Assembly (NCBI RefSeq): GCF_003144245.1
Contig: NW_020289994.1
Location: 248,001-312,000 of the forward strand
DNA: 64,000 nt
Origin: Jaminaea rosea
Taxonomy: Eukaryota; Basidiomycota; Exobasidiomycetes; Microstromatales
Direction: 5' to 3'
Position numbers and translations under genes: made by a program. Positions 21,348 to 56,747 of the stretch are shown piece after piece (position 1 is the first letter of the stretch; every line of letters begins with the position of its first letter). The notes beneath the pieces were generated by a model. That model worked only from the letters and a program-made list of their open reading frames with translations, was not told the DNA's origin and made no database searches.

Positions 21348-23244
21348 ATGACCATGGCCACGCCCGCACGCGCACCCGCTCCTACCCTCTCCCGGGCCAC
21401 GACAGTGACATCACAGGACAAGCACGATGCTTCTCCTCCCTCCAAAGGCCACGACGAAGCCAAGGGAGAGCGCTCGTCGCCGTCGGCGTCGACTGCCATC
21501 TCCGGCTTCAAGCGCTATACGATCATCGCCTGCCTTGTTCTCGCCATGTTCCTCGTTTCCCTCGATCGCACCATCTTGGGAGTTGCCGTGCCCCGCATCA
21601 CCGACGAGTTTCACTCTCTCGATGATGTTGCTTGGTACTTTTCGGCGTACTCAATCGCCAACGCTGCCTTGCAGCTCGTGTGGGGACGCATCTACAAGTT
21701 CAATCCGGCAAAGACGTGCTTCATCATTTCGGTCCTCCTCTTCGAAGTCGGCTCGGCCGTCTGCGGTGCTGCGCCCAACTCCATTGCCCTGATCATTGGT
21801 AGGGCCATCGCGGGAGCAGGTGCTGCTGGAATCTTTTCAGGCTGCATACAGATCGTCATGGCGCTCGTCCCTCTCGAGAAGAGACCGGTATTCCAGGCCT
21901 CGTTTGGCGCTGTGTTCGGCGCCGCCAGCGCAATTGGCCCTCTCCTCGGCGGTGCATTCACGCAAAAGGTCTCCTGGCGATGGTGCTTGTGAGTGTGCGC
22001 ATCCTGGCTAGCGCTACTGGCAAAGCTGACTTCTCTTTGCTCCCTTGCTCAGCTATATCAACTTGCCCCTGGCCGCGTTGGCTCTCTTCGCCGTCGTCTT
22101 CTTCTTCGACGGCGACCTCACGGACAGGAACAAGCGGAAGATGACCGTCAGCGAGCAGATCAACCAGCTTGACCCCATCGGAACTCTCCTTATCATCCCC
22201 TGTGTCACCTGCCTGCTTATTGCCCTGCAGTGGGGAGGAGCCAGATATGCCTGGAGCAACGGCCGCGTCATTGCGCTACTCGTAGTATTCGCCGTTACGC
22301 TCGTGGCTTTCATCGCATCACAAATCTGGCTCGGCGATCGAGCGAGCTTGCCTCCCAAGATCTTCATGGAGCGAAGTGTGTTGGGCTCCTTCTGGTATCT
22401 CATTCTCCTGTCGGGCTCGATGTCCACCGTCTTCTACTATGGTGAGTGCAGCGAGGTTTCATCCCCGACTAGCTCGCTGTTCATTGCTAATCAGCCACTC
22501 GTCTCGCCCCTCCACGCAGTACCAATCTGGTTCCAAGTCGTCCAAGACAAATCGCCCCTGACAGCAAGCTACCATACACTTCCTTCCATCCTGGCAATCG
22601 TCGTCGCCTCGATCTTGAACGGCGCCTTCTCGCAAAAGACGGGCTACTACACACCAGGAATGCTTGCGACGCCAATCCTAGCGAGCGTCGGAGCTGGACT
22701 CATCTCGACATGGACGCCCTCCACGTCGACGGGGCAATGGATGGGCTATCAGATCTTGTTCGGCGCCGGGATCGGCCTGGGAATGCAGGGCGGCTCTCTC
22801 GCCGTTCAAGCTGTCCTTCCTGGACCAGACATCCCCATTGGCATTGCTGCGACCTTCTTTGCTCGTGAGATGGGAGGCGCCATCTTCGTTGCCGTGGCGC
22901 AAAATCTCCTTCAGTCCAAGCTGGCAGCACAGCTGTCCGCCATCCCTCAGCTTCACAATATTGCCTCGCATCTTGCACATGCAGGGGCCAGCGAGATCAG
23001 GCAAGGTGTCGACCCGGATCAGGTTGGTCTCATTGCCCAGGCGTACAATGCTTCGCTGCGCGATGCCTGGTACCTAGCTACGGCCTGTGCCGCCGCGATG
23101 ATCGTGCCTTTTGCTCTGATTAGATGGATCAACCTCAAGAAGCGTGGGAAGAAGATTGCGGAGGAGACGAGAGAGCAGGAGTCAATGCGGGAGAAGCAGG
23201 ACCAAGCGGCAGAATCTGGCGCCGTGAAGGCCGAACAGGCCTAG
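21348..23244 (+). CDS. MFS multidrug transporter, 14-helix DHA2 type
   Basis: Exons 21348-21988, 22053-22441 and 22520-23244 give 584 residues. A hydrophilic N-terminal arm of about 50 residues precedes the first helix (YTIIACLVLAMFLVSLD). The DHA2 signature is clear: LDRTILGVAVPRITDEFHSLDDVAWYF near residue 73, the degenerate motif A loop WGRIYKFNPAK, motif C as GAASAIGPLLGGAF near 195, then WRWCFYINLP across intron 1. The length and about 14 hydrophobic segments match fungal drug/toxin/siderophore exporters (proton antiport at the plasma membrane). Substrate unknown. Intron 2 (78 nt) is a multiple of three and has no stop, so its retention would insert 26 residues after VFYY; the spliced form matches the family. 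It sits next to the secreted-protein island. Confidence 0.96.
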
Positions 23245-23647: not shown

Positions 23648-24315
23648 ATGCAACTTTCTCGCTGCGCATCTCTGGCCATTATAGTCATACTCAGCTACCT
23701 ATTCACGAGCATTTGCGCAGCCCCGGCCAACCTGGTGCGTCTTTCGTCTGAAGAGAAAGCTCAATAAGCTGCTCATTGGCCTCTTGTCTCTCACAGGCTG
23801 TTGTTGCTCACAGAAACAGCCTCGATGACTTCAAGGCTGCCCGCGACATGTCAAACAGTCCGGCAGACGTTTTGGGTATCCCACGTGCTGAGAGCTGGTA
23901 TCCCACGTGCTGAGAGCTGCGCTCCTAAGTGCTCAGGCAACCAATGCTGGTGCTGCGACAGTCAATGCGCTGTCAGTCTCAAGGTCGAAGGCTGGGCGAC
24001 CAAGGGCAACCAGGTCAGCAAGCCTGGAGTCAGTTTGCATAGCTTCAAAGCCTTAGGCTGCCACCTCAAGTGCGCCGGCTACTCGTGTTGGTGTTGCGAC
24101 GATCACTGCGCAACGAGGCTCAAGGCCTCCGGGTGGTCCTTCGAGCGCAGCAAGGCCACCAAGAAGGGTGCGGGCATGAATAACTTCGAGGCTGACCTTA
24201 CCAGAGGAGGGAACGTGGGTCATATGGTAACCATCGATGAGTGAGTGGCCGAGCGTGCCAGACACCAGTGCCGACGGCATGCTAATGCTCCATCTTGATC
24301 CGGCACAGGCTTTGA
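23648..24315 (+). pseudogene. Small secreted protein with two CWCC cysteine units; frame interrupted
   Basis: Exon 1 (23648-23734) encodes a signal peptide of about 24 residues (MQLSRCASLAIIVILSYLF onward). A 62-nt intron leads in phase 0 to exon 2 from 23797. Exon 2 encodes two units about 47 residues apart with identical spacing C-x3-C-x4-C-W-C-C-x3-C followed by LKxxGW; I know no family with this pattern. A 22-bp perfect tandem duplication (23874-23895, 23896-23917) between the leader and unit 1 throws the signal-peptide frame out of the frame of the units, so the gene looks broken here. A 61-nt intron (23875-23935) would keep frame but would remove the first two cysteines of unit 1. The 3' end is either TGA 24242-24244, or, if GTGAGT at 24241 and AG at 24308 are used (CTAAT branch-like site between), a C-terminus IDEL ending at 24315. 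Confidence 0.6.
23874..23917 (+). repeat. 22-bp perfect tandem duplication
   Basis: Two adjacent identical copies, starting GGTATCCCACGTG, lie inside exon 2 of the two-unit secreted protein. The unit is not a multiple of three. It looks recent because the copies are identical. Confidence 0.95.
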
Positions 24316-24617
24316 TGGGCACACAGCGTTGCCAATCAGCGGCTTGACCGTGATGAACCGGCCGCGTGCCGCCAATGTACACACTCATGGTGTCCCCATA
24401 TTGAGGGCCCTCTGATGTTCATTTGTTCCCACTACCTTGTCATGACTCAGAGATCATCGATGAAAGCTGTGCAGTACGGCCGCGAGGGAGCAATGCCCGG
24501 CCGCTTTCTCGCCGTGCCGTTTTGTCGACTTGCTGCCTCCAGACCTTTTGCGCCTAACCAACGTGCGCCAGAACCTCTTTCATCCTTGCCATCTCGACAC
24601 GACTTACATCGCCCACC
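24316..24617. other. Intergenic within the secreted-protein island
   Basis: About 300 bp with no recognisable gene; it carries the promoter of the next small secreted gene. Confidence 0.45.
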
Positions 24618-24898
24618 ATGAGAACCGCTGCATTCGTTTTCGCTCTTACTATCGTCAGCCTCGCTGGCCTTGCTCACGCCGCATGCTGCGCTATTCCTGG
24701 ACTCAGCTGGTGAGCAGGCACGCCTCAGGTCGTAGCCAAGCTGATACGCCTAAAGCTCTCCCTCATTCGTCTTCAACTGCCGGCAGCCGTGATATCCCCT
24801 AGAATGGCTGTCCCTCGGGTGCAGTCACTTGCCGAGCGTGCGAGTGCGAGCCTAATGGATGCAACGCCATCCCTGAGATTCTCCGTGACGCGGTGTGA
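24618..24898 (+). pseudogene. Eight-cysteine small secreted protein, copy 1, with in-frame stop
   Basis: Exon 1 (24618-24709, 92 nt) encodes a signal peptide (MRTAAFVFALTIVSLAGLAHA) and the start of the mature protein with ACC. A 77-nt intron in phase 2 leads to exon 2 (24787-24898). The cysteine spacing CC-x6-C-x7-C-x6-C-x2-C-x1-C-x4-C is exactly that of the gene at 25305-25589, with the same exon-1 length and the same intron phase, so the two are tandem paralogues. In this copy one position between the third and fourth cysteine elements is a TAG codon (24800-24802), while the sequence after it keeps the family pattern. It is therefore either a young pseudogene, a sequence error, or a read-through case. 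No known family recognised. Confidence 0.65.
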
Positions 24899-25304
24899 GA
24901 CGAGGACAACGCAACTGCAGGCTTGGGGTCCTCACTGGCTAGGCAATGAGAGGCTGCGGTATCAACTTTGCGCCGAATACGCCCACGCTCAAAGCCCGCT
25001 TAGCACGCGCAAGACAATGCGACAATAATGCCGTAACACAACTTCTGTGCTTGTCTCCCTCCGCAAGCGTCTGAGCTCCCCTCGCTTTGCGGCATGGAAG
25101 TGCTGCGCGAGAGGGCTTTTGCCCACGATCGAGGGCTTTTCCCTCGCGCAATGTTGCCCCAGAGCGGGTTCACATCATGATGGCGATGCCCGCTGCCCAA
25201 AAGCTGCCGTCATCAAGCATCGCCACCTCAGCTCCTTTCTCTTTCTCGCTCCCACTTACCGCACTAATACTACTGCCTCGCCACAGATAGCCTTCTTGTA
25301 CTTT
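24899..25304. other. Intergenic between the two eight-cysteine paralogues
   Basis: These 406 bp hold no gene I can support. A short imperfect direct repeat built on GAGGGCTTTT occurs at 25111 and 25131. It contains the promoter of the downstream paralogue. Confidence 0.45.
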
Positions 25305-25589
25305 ATGAAGCTAGTCAACTGTGCCCTCGCCGTTCTCCTACTCGTCATCGCTAGGAGGGCCAATGCTTCCTGCTGCGCTACAAGCTTTGGTGGCTGGTAC
25401 GTACGTCTTATCTCATGTACCTGCCAGCGCACCACTTGACGATATCGCACTGCGGCTCGAAACGTACGCAGCACGCCTTTACCGAGCTCCATCTGCCCAG
25501 GAGGTACCACAGCTTGTCGCGACTGCGCGTGCACGCCTCAAGGTTGCCCACGCCCCCACAATGCGACGAAAACCGGCCTAATGGGATGA
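25305..25589 (+). CDS. Eight-cysteine small secreted protein, copy 2 (intact)
   Basis: Exons 25305-25396 and 25472-25589 (phase 2 intron of 75 nt, GTACGT donor) give 69 residues. A signal peptide of about 21 residues (MKLVNCALAVLLLVIARRANA) is followed by a mature peptide of about 48 residues with eight cysteines in the order CC-x6-C-x7-C-x6-C-x2-C-x1-C-x4-C. Eight cysteines in so short a secreted chain imply four disulfides. The upstream gene at 24618-24898 has the same spacing, intron phase and exon-1 length. I recognise no named family. In plant- or insect-associated fungi such proteins are often effectors or surface peptides; that role is an inference here. Confidence 0.8.
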
Positions 25590-26318
25590 AAGCGCTGAGC
25601 AAAGTGCCCAAGGCGACAACAAGGTGAAAGCGAGGCGCGTTCTGAAGCATCATCGTGTGCGCTGTTCCGACGTAGGACGGCGAGCCCTCTCGTGCCACCA
25701 GAAAGGCTGGCGCCACCAGAAAGGCTGGATTTCAAAAAGAACAAACGCGCGTTCGATCTCTAAGGCTTCGTTGAGAAGACCGCGCAATCTCTATAGAAGG
25801 CGAATGTCCGTCACCATCTCTTGACTCGACACAGCTTCTCTACTCGACACTCCACACATCAAAACAAGCTCGAGCTCCCTTCTCGCTATCTTCATTCGCA
25901 CTGATTCATTTCCAAACGCTCGAGGCGCGATATATCGTGAAGGCGCAGTGGTGTGTCGGCACTGCTGAAGCGTATTCAAAGCGCACACCGTCGTCTGACC
26001 GTTTGAGCCGCACTGCCAGCCGCTGAGGCAGAAGTGATACCGCTGTCAAGCCAGTAGAGGTTGTCAAGGTGCCGAAGTCGCCTTGGTAGGTCCGCAGGCT
26101 TGACCTTAGCCATTCGCGCTTCGCCGGATTATCCGCTCGACCAATCACCCTGAACCCTACGCATGCTCATTGGCTCGCACCATCCGAACCCTTAGGCCTA
26201 GCGAGGCTTTGTGCGAAGAGTTGATACGATACTGATTCAGCAGCAGTGCAGCTTGCCTTTGCACTTTTCACCTGTCCCTGCCCGACCCAGGCTTGGTACT
26301 GCCTACAGCTACCGCACC
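25590..26318. other. Intergenic within the secreted-protein island
   Basis: 729 bp with no supported gene. It contains a near-perfect 18-bp-period tandem duplication at 25694-25728. The rest shows only short random open frames. Confidence 0.45.
25694..25728 (+). repeat. Short tandem duplication, 18-bp period
   Basis: Two 17-bp copies of GCCACCAGAAAGGCTGG separated by one base. A second case of local tandem duplication in the secreted-protein island. Confidence 0.9.
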
Positions 26319-26891
26319 ATGGCCGTCCTCTTCTCGCTCTGGCTACTCTTGCTCCTCAGTCACTTCCCTCGCCTCTCGTATGCCGACCACTACAACTGCA
26401 CATGGGACGATGCCGAAGGCGAATCGCCTCAGAACGCAGGGTATGTCCGCTTCTGCTGGGCTCCTGTCTACTGGCACGACTACTCTCATGCAGTGTACAA
26501 CTGCGATCATCCCGTCTACGGCCACTTCGTGAAAGTCGCAGACTGGGGCTACCTCCGAGAGAATACTTTAGAATTTTCCACACCCTGCGGTGGAAAGGGC
26601 TTCGCGCCCGATCACGACTGCAACAAGTATGAGGACTGGGCGCTGTGCAATGCTGCGGCGGACGCGACGATCAACCCTGATCGATTTACGTGTCGGATGA
26701 TGCATAAGAAGGATGATTGCCAGTGGTTTGAGAGCATTGGACCGGAGGAGGTTCCTCCAGCTGTGGACATTTGGATCAAGAAAGACTTGGGAGGGAAGAC
26801 CCGGAGGAGGGAAATCCAGCAGGTAGGGGCAAGCGGGCGGCGTGCGTCTCGCGTGGAAGTTGAAGCATGCTCACATGCGATGAAGTGCTGA
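26319..26891 (+). CDS. Secreted cysteine-containing protein, 190 aa
   Basis: A single exon. ATG 26319 is chosen because it starts a strong signal peptide (MAVLFSLWLLLLLSHF, cleavage expected after LSYA near residue 22); the same frame is open 36 codons upstream but without sense. The mature part is rich in Trp, Tyr, His and Asp and has about ten cysteines, including NCTWDD, RFCWAP, TPCGGKG, HDCNKY, ALCNAA and DDCQWF. I do not recognise the family. A basic segment (KTRRRE) near residue 165 could be a processing site. A donor-like CAGGTAGGG at 26820 could splice the last 20 residues away, but no convincing partner exon is seen. It lies at the right end of the secreted island and converges on HEM13. 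Confidence 0.75.
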   Translation: MAVLFSLWLLLLLSHFPRLSYADHYNCTWDDAEGESPQNAGYVRFCWAPVYWHDYSHAVYNCDHPVYGHFVKVADWGYLRENTLEFSTPCGGKGFAPDHDCNKYEDWALCNAAADATINPDRFTCRMMHKKDDCQWFESIGPEEVPPAVDIWIKKDLGGKTRRREIQQVGASGRRASRVEVEACSHAMKC

Positions 26892-27140: not shown

Positions 27141-28765
27141 TCAGACCCATTCTCTTGGGCTCCTCAACACCTGCTGCATCTTCTCCTCCTCACTATCCGC
27201 CATATCCCCGCTGTGCTCTCCAGGCGCAGTGGCCCCACCTCTTCCAATCGCGCCCGACCCCGAGACCGGATGCATATACTCCCACCTAGCCTTGAGGGGC
27301 AGGCTCATCAGAATACTTTCAATCCTCGCCCCGGGTGTGGCCAAGCCAAATTTCGTTCCACGATCGTATGCAAGGTTGAACTCGACGTACCTGCCTCGAC
27401 GAATGCCTTGCCAGGCAATGTGACGGGCGTCGTAGGGCGTTTGTCGACGACGCTCCAGAATGGGCAGGTACGAGGGCAGGAAGGAGTCCCCCATGCTTCG
27501 GACGGTTCTAAAGAGGGATTCAACGTCGTGCTGGCGTGAGGAGGAAGCGATGGCAGGTGCGAGACCTGCGCCACCACTGGCTGCTGCTGCTGGGCCTGAC
27601 TGCTGCTTCGTCTCCAAGAGCGCCAAGAACTCCTTCTTTTCTCTCCTCTTCCCCTCGGCCTGACCCCACGTCCCTGGCACTGTCAAGTCATCAAAAAAGA
27701 CTCCTCCGACCCCTCGATTTTCGCTCCTGTGGGGCAACCAAAAGTACTCGTCGCACCACCTCTTCCAGGCAGGATAAAAGGCCGAGTCATGCTGCGCTGC
27801 TGCGTCCCTCAGCGTGGCGTGGAAATGTTTGGCGTCCTCCTCGAAGAGGTAGATGGGAGTCAAGTCCGTCCCGCCGCCGAACCACCAGGCTGCTGGCTGT
27901 GTTGGGTTTGCTGGATCATAGCGAGGATTGGGCGAGCCGTCCTTTAGTGTGGGTGGGTGGGAGATCTCAAAGTAGCGGTAATTGAAGTGGACTGTGGGTG
28001 CAAAAGGGTTGACTGGGTGTACTACGAGGCTGAGTCCCAAGGCCACAAAGGGCATCGAGTCGATCTCTGCGTCTGGTCCTTCAAAGCGATAGTCCAATCG
28101 GGCATTGATTCGGCCGGAGTTCATCTGTTTGATGGCGCCCAAGGGTAGTTTTCCGTGGACAACGCTGATGTTGCAGCCTGCTTTTTCAAATGTTTGTCCG
28201 TCTTGAACGATGCAGGAGATGCCTTCGCCTCCCTCTTTGCGCTGCCATTGGTCGACGATGAACTTGGTTCCTGGCTCCGTCTTCTGCAAGGCAGTCACGA
28301 TGCGGTGTTGGAGGAGCTTGATGTAGGTTTCCATGCGATAGCGCATGGGCGCGTTGACATCGTCGATGAGCGAGGGATTGAGGTGTGAGATGGAGGGGAG
28401 AGATGGCTGGGGATGAGGAGAGGCGGTGGTGAGTCAGGCGATGGCATGAGATGCAAGCATACATTCGCGATGCTCACCGAGTCTGACTGCGCTTGAGTCT
28501 TCGAGGGCGCTGGCTGTGCAAGGTCATCGCATGCAACCAAGGCTGATCGCGTGCACCAGGCGACAGCCAAGACAGCCGTTGCAGCGAGGGCAGAGGCAGC
28601 TGCCATGTCCCTCGTCCTCGATGAACCAGACGTCGATGAGGCGGATGAAGAGGCGAATGAAGAGGCGAATGACCGCGATGATCGTGACAGAGTCGACTTT
28701 GAGGAGGCGGCTCGCATTCCGCCCATCCTTCTCAAAGCATTGCTCGCAGCTCGATGAGCGGCCAT
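27141..28765 (-). CDS. HEM13: Coproporphyrinogen III oxidase
   Basis: Exons 28765-28478 and 28406-27141 (71-nt intron, phase 0) give 517 residues, well above the roughly 330 of yeast Hem13. The enzyme oxidatively decarboxylates coproporphyrinogen III to protoporphyrinogen IX with O2. Family blocks are present: GGEGISCIVQDGQTFEKAG, the HFNYRYFEI region, WWFGGGTDLTP, HRSENRGVGGVFFDD, and RRGRYVEFNLAYDRGTKFGL, with PLKARWEY near the end. The extra length is an Arg/Ser-rich leader followed by a hydrophobic segment (AAASALAATAVLAVAWC, about residues 54-70) that looks like a mitochondrial inner-membrane or intermembrane-space sorting signal, plus a Gly/Ala-rich insert before the HDVESLFRTV block. 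This suggests a mitochondrial rather than cytosolic enzyme. Confidence 0.97.
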
Positions 28766-55516: not shown

Positions 55517-56747
55517 TCAACGCTTCGTCGCGTCCCTCTTGTCATCTTCCCTCGCTGCCGCTGCCTGCGGTGATCCCCGCCGACTGGATTCATTGCTTGA
55601 CGTAGGCGGCGGATAGCGGTACGGCGCCGCATCTTCGTTCACGGGTCCCTCCTCCTCGTCTTCACTCTCGTCGCCGATGAGATGCGTCGTCGTGTCCGCG
55701 GCTGGTGGTGGTAGCGGCGACGATGACTGTTGGTCGCGTGGTGTGCTATTGGCGTACCTGCTCTTATTTGGGTCGTGTCGTAGGAGTGAATCAACGAGCC
55801 AAAACTGCGGACGGCGATGGTCGAGTGTCAGCTTGCAAAATAGCAACGTCCGCGTCTCGCGCGGCTTGCGAAACAGCAATGTCCGCGTCTCTCGCAGCGC
55901 CCTCACCTGCATCGTGTTCATGAGGAGCGGAAAGATGCACATGACAAAGAGCACCTGCACGTTCTTTGCCTCGCCGAAGAGGCCGAGGAGCCAGCGTCCA
56001 AGTGCAAAGAGGAAGGGAAAGAGGACAAAGAGGAGGGTGACGATGACCTTCATGATACTGTGCGCAGGCAGATGGGGAAAAGCGTCAGCCAGCAAGACGT
56101 GTACACCTCTTGCGTGGACTGCCGCACTTACAACAGCGCAAAGAAGTACATGCCGAGCTGCTTTGACCAGTACGACAAGCGTGGCCGCGATGCCTTGCCT
56201 CGCCCCCGCTTCGTTCCATCCGTGTACTGCCCAGAGACACACCCCTTGAGGCCCATGACGGTCGTCAGGAAGTGCGTCGTCGCTCGCAGCGTGGCGTAGA
56301 TGATGGCTACGCCAGCGGTAGTGTCGACGAGAATGTTGAGGAAATACAGACTGCAGGGATTCTCGTCGCCGACATTGGCCACAAAGTTGGAGAGCAAGAC
56401 GTTGAGAGTGTGGACGAAGAGCTGGCCGAGCATCTGTTTTGTGATGTCAAGCAGCCAGATCTTCCACGGTCTGCGTGGTCGTTCACGTTGCCTCTTCCAG
56501 ACGAGAGTCCCCACGACGAGGATTCCCATAAGTGCCTGAACGACGAGGGCGACTGCGAGTGTGAGGGAGCGAGCGCGAGTGGGCGAGTGAGCGAGGTCAG
56601 TCGGCGGGCCCCGACCCTTTGCCACTCTGCACACTCACACGGGCCCAAGAGCCTGCAGTTGGCATCGTCTACATCTGGCGCTCCTATGATAGGAGGTGGC
56701 GTAGGCGAAGGAGCTATCGGTATCGTCGCAGTCGAAGTCGTTGCCAT
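55517..56747 (-). CDS. STIMATE/TMEM110-family vacuolar membrane protein
   Basis: Exons 56747-56639, 56552-56132, 56057-55907 and 55804-55517 give 322 residues with phases 1, 2 and 0. Family blocks: LLGPFALVVQALMGILVVGTLVWKR at the first helix (across intron 1), RPWKIWLLDITKQMLGQLFVHTLNVLLS near residue 70, NPCSLYFLNILVDTTAGVAIIY near 105, QLGMYFFALFIMKVIVTLLF across intron 2, and FWLVDSLLRHDP after intron 3. Four or five membrane helices are followed by an acidic/Ser-rich tail. Yeast and fission-yeast members are vacuolar membrane proteins; animal STIMATE works at ER-plasma membrane contacts. Intron 3 contains a near-perfect internal duplication. Tandem with the dehydrogenase gene upstream (173 bp). 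Confidence 0.9.
55831..55895. repeat. Imperfect direct repeat inside intron 3 of the STIMATE-family gene
   Basis: Two copies of about 30 bp starting GCTTGC, at 55831 and 55864, differ at a few positions and lie wholly within the 102-nt intron. Duplication of this segment probably lengthened the intron. Confidence 0.85.

Follow-up and report, generated by a model that had tools for sequence, protein, structure and literature searches.

Effector genes of smut fungi are described, in the excerpts consulted of each paper cited here, as forming clusters of 3 to 26 genes in which related copies stand in tandem and expression is induced by infection (PMC8224859). The apple pathogen Venturia inaequalis has families of 2 to 75 effector candidates expressed at the infection stage; some of these families are predicted to be ToxA-like beta-sandwiches (PMC9632046). 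The ToxA-like family itself, including ToxA, Avr2 and AvrL567, has a beta-sandwich fold (PMC10942635, PMC10094246). A microbe-directed effector, a GH25 protein, has been described in the epiphytic yeast Moesziomyces (PMC9438471). Jaminaea rosea, an ustilaginomycete of the order Microstromatales, shares a subphylum with the smut fungi and is named among phylloplane fungi (PMC7766764); it resembles Moesziomyces as a leaf-surface ustilaginomycete yeast with secreted proteins (PMC9438471).

We analysed four consecutive genes of J. rosea, g1 to g4, the last of which belongs to a large family. This family resembles the clusters of Ustilago maydis, such as Pleiades, in comprising related secreted-type genes in tandem, in lying outside named gene families and in occurring in the same subphylum (PMC8224859). 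It differs from the smut clusters in its size, at least 88 loci on seven contigs, and in belonging to a phylloplane yeast; no sequence relationship was found between the smut cluster effectors and the g4 family. Like the families of V. inaequalis it consists of many small secreted-type proteins with an apparently kept fold and low identity (PMC9632046), but by sequence it is a separate family, carried by a genome of 16.6 Mb. The Moesziomyces effector is a glycoside hydrolase, whereas none of the 34 members of the g4 family scanned against Pfam matched an enzyme family. Clustered secreted families are already known; what is unusual here is the size of the family and its setting.

The window, the whole 64 kb stretch of DNA analysed, lies on a contig of 363,841 bases (C20). 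The initial annotation had described four plus-strand cysteine-rich genes with signal peptides at 23648-26891, two of them with interrupted frames, set among housekeeping genes beside an MFS transporter gene, and all of these features were found (Table 1). The N-termini of all four genes passed a crude signal-peptide rule; of 839 stretches from six housekeeping ORFs, 22 did. The frame of g1 is interrupted at a 22-bp tandem duplication, downstream of which a cysteine-rich reading resumes in another frame as far as the end of the gene, and that of g2 at an in-frame TAG; as sequenced, g1 and g2 encode no full-length products. The upstream neighbour matches MFS_1 in its first piece (E 2.3e-29) and TRI12 in its second (E 7.6e-7). 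Downstream are genes for coproporphyrinogen oxidase, a WD40 protein and EFL1; genes for Prp31, a RhoGAP and a Serinc protein lie further out.

Table 1. Features of the four-gene interval and its immediate flanks (window positions)
Feature	Position	Strand	Description
MFS transporter	21348-23244	+	at least two introns; exon pieces 21348-21992 and about 22054-23244; upstream neighbour
g1	23648-24244	+	one intron (62 nt)
g1 exon 1	23648-23734	+	signal peptide, 29 aa; GT donor at 23735, CAG acceptor ending 23796; passes crude signal-peptide rule
g1 exon 2	23797-24244	+	frame interrupted at 22-bp tandem duplication
22-bp tandem duplication in g1	23875-23919	+	Tandem Repeats Finder; perfect, 100% matches, score 90
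g1 tail piece	23918-24241	+	two C-x3-C-x4-CWCC-x3-C domains
g2	24618-24898	+	one intron
g2 exon 1	24618-24709	+	signal peptide and ACC motif, 92 nt
g2 exon 2	24787-24898	+	in-frame TAG at 24800-24802
g3	25305-25589	+	one intron, frame open
g3 exon 1	25305-25396	+	signal peptide and SCC motif; passes crude signal-peptide rule
g3 intron	25397-25471	+	phase 2
g3 exon 2	25472-25589	+	open to stop
18-bp tandem duplication between g3 and g4	25694-25728	+	score 70
g4	26319-26891	+	intronless, single open exon, 190 aa; eight-cysteine family member
Coproporphyrinogen III oxidase	27141-28346	-	last exon at least; Coprogen_oxidas E 5.6e-118; housekeeping flank

A density scan for single-frame ORFs with a signal peptide and a cysteine-rich sequence, which misses g1 and g2 because they are not single-frame, returned three ORFs in the 3.35 kb of the interval: g3 exon 1 read into its intron, g4, and an antisense ORF at 25411-25653. 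In 200 dinucleotide shuffles of the 3.35 kb the mean was 0.21 ORFs, with two or more in three shuffles and three or more in none. The same scan of the whole 64 kb gave 9 ORFs, where 20 shuffles averaged 2.05. Short tandem duplications had also been said to recur here. Two are present, but their concentration is only mild, the interval holding 2 of the 11 distinct tandem arrays that reach a score of 50 across the 64 kb, and they were rejected as a special feature of it. The top-scoring tandem duplication of the window, of 33 bp with 87% matches, lies outside the interval at 55831-55895.

The two halves of the g1 tail align with each other with a score of 119, reached in none of 2000 shuffles. 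The first exons of g2 and g3 are equal in length and have matching intron phase, and their similarity was reached by 3 of 2000 shuffles. The piece of g2 past the TAG aligns with g3 exon 2 with a score of 72, as high as which none of 2000 shuffles rose, and the two have in common CPxGxxxCRxCxCxPxGC. The intron lies at an identical place and in identical phase in both genes. Judged by these likenesses, g2 and g3 are paralogues forming a tandem pair. The similarity of g4 to g1 and to g3 was not above chance, 475 and 414 of 500 shuffles respectively scoring as high. Searches of the J. rosea genome for relatives of g1 and of g2/g3 recovered only the queries themselves, and the g3 query did not recover even g2. 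The g1 tail yielded no candidate in a word-sampling search of the protein collection, and Pfam scans of the g1 tail and g3 exon 1 gave no match. The codon pattern for CWCC matched the genome 33 times, against 4 times for a control; two matches are in g1, and many of the other 31 are CTG-type repeats. When 310 kb of J. rosea DNA was scanned for motifs, the CWCC motif occurred in g1 only, whereas the motif of g2/g3 turned up in both of these genes and also in three stretches that are of low complexity or antisense. We would regard g1 to g3 as separate small secreted orphan genes sharing a neighbourhood with g4. There is an appreciable but lesser chance that these three are non-functional relics or chance ORFs without a present role, as the interruptions in g1 and g2 and the lack of relatives in these limited searches would allow; the likeness of g2 and g3 beyond chance in both exons, with their matching intron place and phase, the duplicate halves of g1 and the open frame of g3 argue against it.

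Searched against its own genome, g4 gave 55 matches at E 0.001 or better, the best paralogue at E 2.4e-32. Two further family queries gave 81 and 69 genome matches at E 0.01 or better, and added the arrays on C10 and the site on C1. An iterated profile was then run over the 310 kb of fetched DNA, window included, and its 140 segments in 91 rows were reduced by three merges to 88 loci (C10, 37; C20, 36; C4, 5; C14, 4; C2, 3; C1, 2; C7, 1), a lower bound because only stretches named by the genome searches were fetched. Thus g4 is one of at least 88 J. rosea loci with eight conserved cysteines and a signal-peptide-like start, most of them in tandem arrays, which are found on C20, C10, C4, C14 and C2. 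In the profile scan g4 was the only family member in the window; the family members nearest to it on the contig, at C20:242-245k, lie about 29 kb upstream, beyond the window. One array member, the annotated J. rosea protein BDZ90DRAFT_263289, reads the same as L014:9208-9702 on C20.

On C20, C4 and C7, 36 loci are complete in one exon. Another three on C20 and 46 on C10, C14, C2 and C1 are, all but one, in two or three intron-like pieces (putative gene models). The pieces break near alignment columns 38, 47, 77-80 and 105-108, and 36 members have no break; introns in the family have therefore probably been gained or lost repeatedly. Intron presence needs at least 7 state changes on the family tree. 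Three C20 loci (171758, 177592 and 211165) are remnants, among them decayed copies inside the largest array at L012:1758-2061 and L012:7583-8106. Two genes encoding F-box and YccV-like domains, L013:3351-6428 (C20:183351-186431) and L015:7426-10000 (C20:207426-210305), each adjoin a family array, which suggests that array and neighbour were duplicated together as blocks.

The eight kept columns are filled by cysteine in 85/85, 75/85, 78/82, 63/79, 81/85, 85/85, 82/83 and 76/77 rows, and H17, W22, P29, A64 and a DDC motif are near-invariant. A hydrophobic stretch is present at the start of all 34 members examined, of which 28 pass and 6 fail a strict, still crude, signal-peptide rule, and 29 of the 34 end 21 to 26 residues past the DDC motif. 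The hydrophobins, CFEM proteins, cerato-platanins and killer toxins are named Pfam families of small secreted proteins, and none of them was matched by the 34 members scanned; nothing else in Pfam was convincing (best E 0.003, IL6Ra-bind, in 2 members). A sequence search of the PDB gave no match for any of the 34. The full-length model of g4 had a pLDDT of 84.5. Its C-terminal extension (about residues 156-190, window 26784-26888) is basic, of low confidence and carries two extra cysteines, and this tail is absent from most paralogues. In the model of the mature domain (pLDDT 95.5, pTM 0.88) eight strands reach a length of at least three residues, and the mature part is predicted to be a compact, disulphide-rich beta-sandwich. 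It had no clear match among solved structures. In the fold list, ToxA-like effectors (Avr2, ToxA and AvrL567 were all present) stand level with FN3 and TRAF/MATH domains, all at low Z. In number, the eight strands agree with the seven or eight given for ToxA-like proteins in the excerpt of PMC10094246, a count that many unrelated sandwiches share. Because the fold searches gave no specific relative, a binding role was not derived from the structure.

Mapped onto an 85-row tree, the array labels require 26 changes; shuffled labels require 60.6, and none of 200 shuffles came down to 26. This clustering fits growth by local duplication. The tree is built on few columns, with 45 of 82 inner branches open and g4 in no starred clade; g4 is a long branch (0.72) and has at most 44% identity to any row. 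The arrays have expanded through local duplication, with decay under way in some copies. pN exceeded pS in none of the 561 paralogue pairs; of the 15 closest pairs, eight had a finite dS, with dN/dS values of 0.11 to 0.41. As dS is saturated in most pairs and finite in only 271 of the 561, the test is coarse, and episodic or site-wise positive selection may have acted in the family. Compared with C20:179204 and C20:180169, their metagenome near-orthologues have changes at 5/21 and 4/22 signal-peptide positions and at 3/124 and 3/122 mature positions. The few mature changes indicate constraint on the mature protein and argue against fast evolution at this time depth. The two near-orthologues, P0002 and P0003, share one 7,022-base contig, and a close relative with the same array therefore exists in public metagenomes.

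Among 32 candidates from the protein collection, g4 alone matched only itself. A search with the 34-row alignment (A1) found, among 3574 candidates, four proteins: g4, one annotated J. rosea protein and the two proteins of the metagenome contig. Absence elsewhere is weak evidence, because the search samples words and missed most of the J. rosea paralogues. No published description of the family was found in the literature searched. Within this scope, the claims of the initial annotation that the genes belong to no recognised family and are restricted to the lineage stood: J. rosea and the one metagenome contig alone matched the g4 family, and the limited searches for relatives of g1 to g3 yielded none. 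Its proposal of fast turnover is supported by signs of birth and death of genes, namely the interrupted g1 and g2 and the three C20 remnants, but fast diversification is not supported, given the pN and pS values and the few mature changes in the near-orthologues.

With modest confidence, we favour as a whole the explanation that g4 belongs to a multiplied secreted-type family of outward-acting extracellular binding proteins, and that g1 to g3 are separate orphans. The family proteins would act outside the cell as stable secreted binding domains, with surfaces that vary from one protein to another; tandem duplication would supply a varied set while purifying selection would keep the fold, and the yeast would use the proteins outward on the leaf surface. 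As to the target, neighbouring microbes may tentatively be put first, the plant comes close behind, and a role on the yeast's own cell surface is somewhat less likely again. Three considerations place microbes slightly above the plant: J. rosea is a phylloplane fungus, no arms-race signature was seen, and microbe-directed proteins are reported, in the excerpt consulted, from an epiphytic relative (PMC9438471).

The interval and the arrays could instead be smut-like effector clusters diversified by host selection, their products plant-directed effectors in an arms race. The proteins are small, secreted-type, cysteine-rich and, as far as searched, lineage-restricted; smut effector genes do form clusters, of 3 to 26 genes and with tandem relatives (PMC8224859), J. 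rosea combines membership of the smut subphylum with a phylloplane habit (PMC7766764), and ToxA-like effectors appear among the low-Z fold matches. This explanation nevertheless seems unlikely to us, since no pathogenic stage of J. rosea was met in the excerpts of the literature searched, pN exceeds pS in no pair and the mature near-orthologues are strongly conserved.

The family could also serve the yeast's own surface or life cycle, its products being wall-bound, adhesive, mating-type or dormancy proteins that are numerous through dosage or variable display. In yeasts, surface proteins commonly form large tandem families. The constraint on the mature domain would suit such proteins. We consider this more doubtful still, as reading through members by eye revealed neither a GPI-type tail nor a repeat region, as most members end shortly after the DDC motif, and no Pfam surface family was matched. 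A self-contained, isolated island of four genes, as first proposed, is rejected because the family has arrays elsewhere in the genome, the main ones outside the window.

It is improbable that a ToxA-like beta-sandwich family is present in a leaf-surface yeast without a known disease stage, with 88 loci, more than any single family named in the literature searched. Were this modelled likeness true, the fold of plant disease effectors would have a standing role in leaf life, and disease effectors could have been recruited from it. For a yeast not known here as a pathogen, devoting at least 88 loci of a 16.6 Mb genome to a single unnamed secreted family is a large investment. Should the proteins act on other microbes or on leaf tissue, J. 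rosea would offer a tractable, culturable system for the tandem growth of secreted cysteine-rich repertoires without a disease arms race, and would also allow one to ask whether, in the smut lineage, repertoires of an effector-like kind arise before pathogenicity does.
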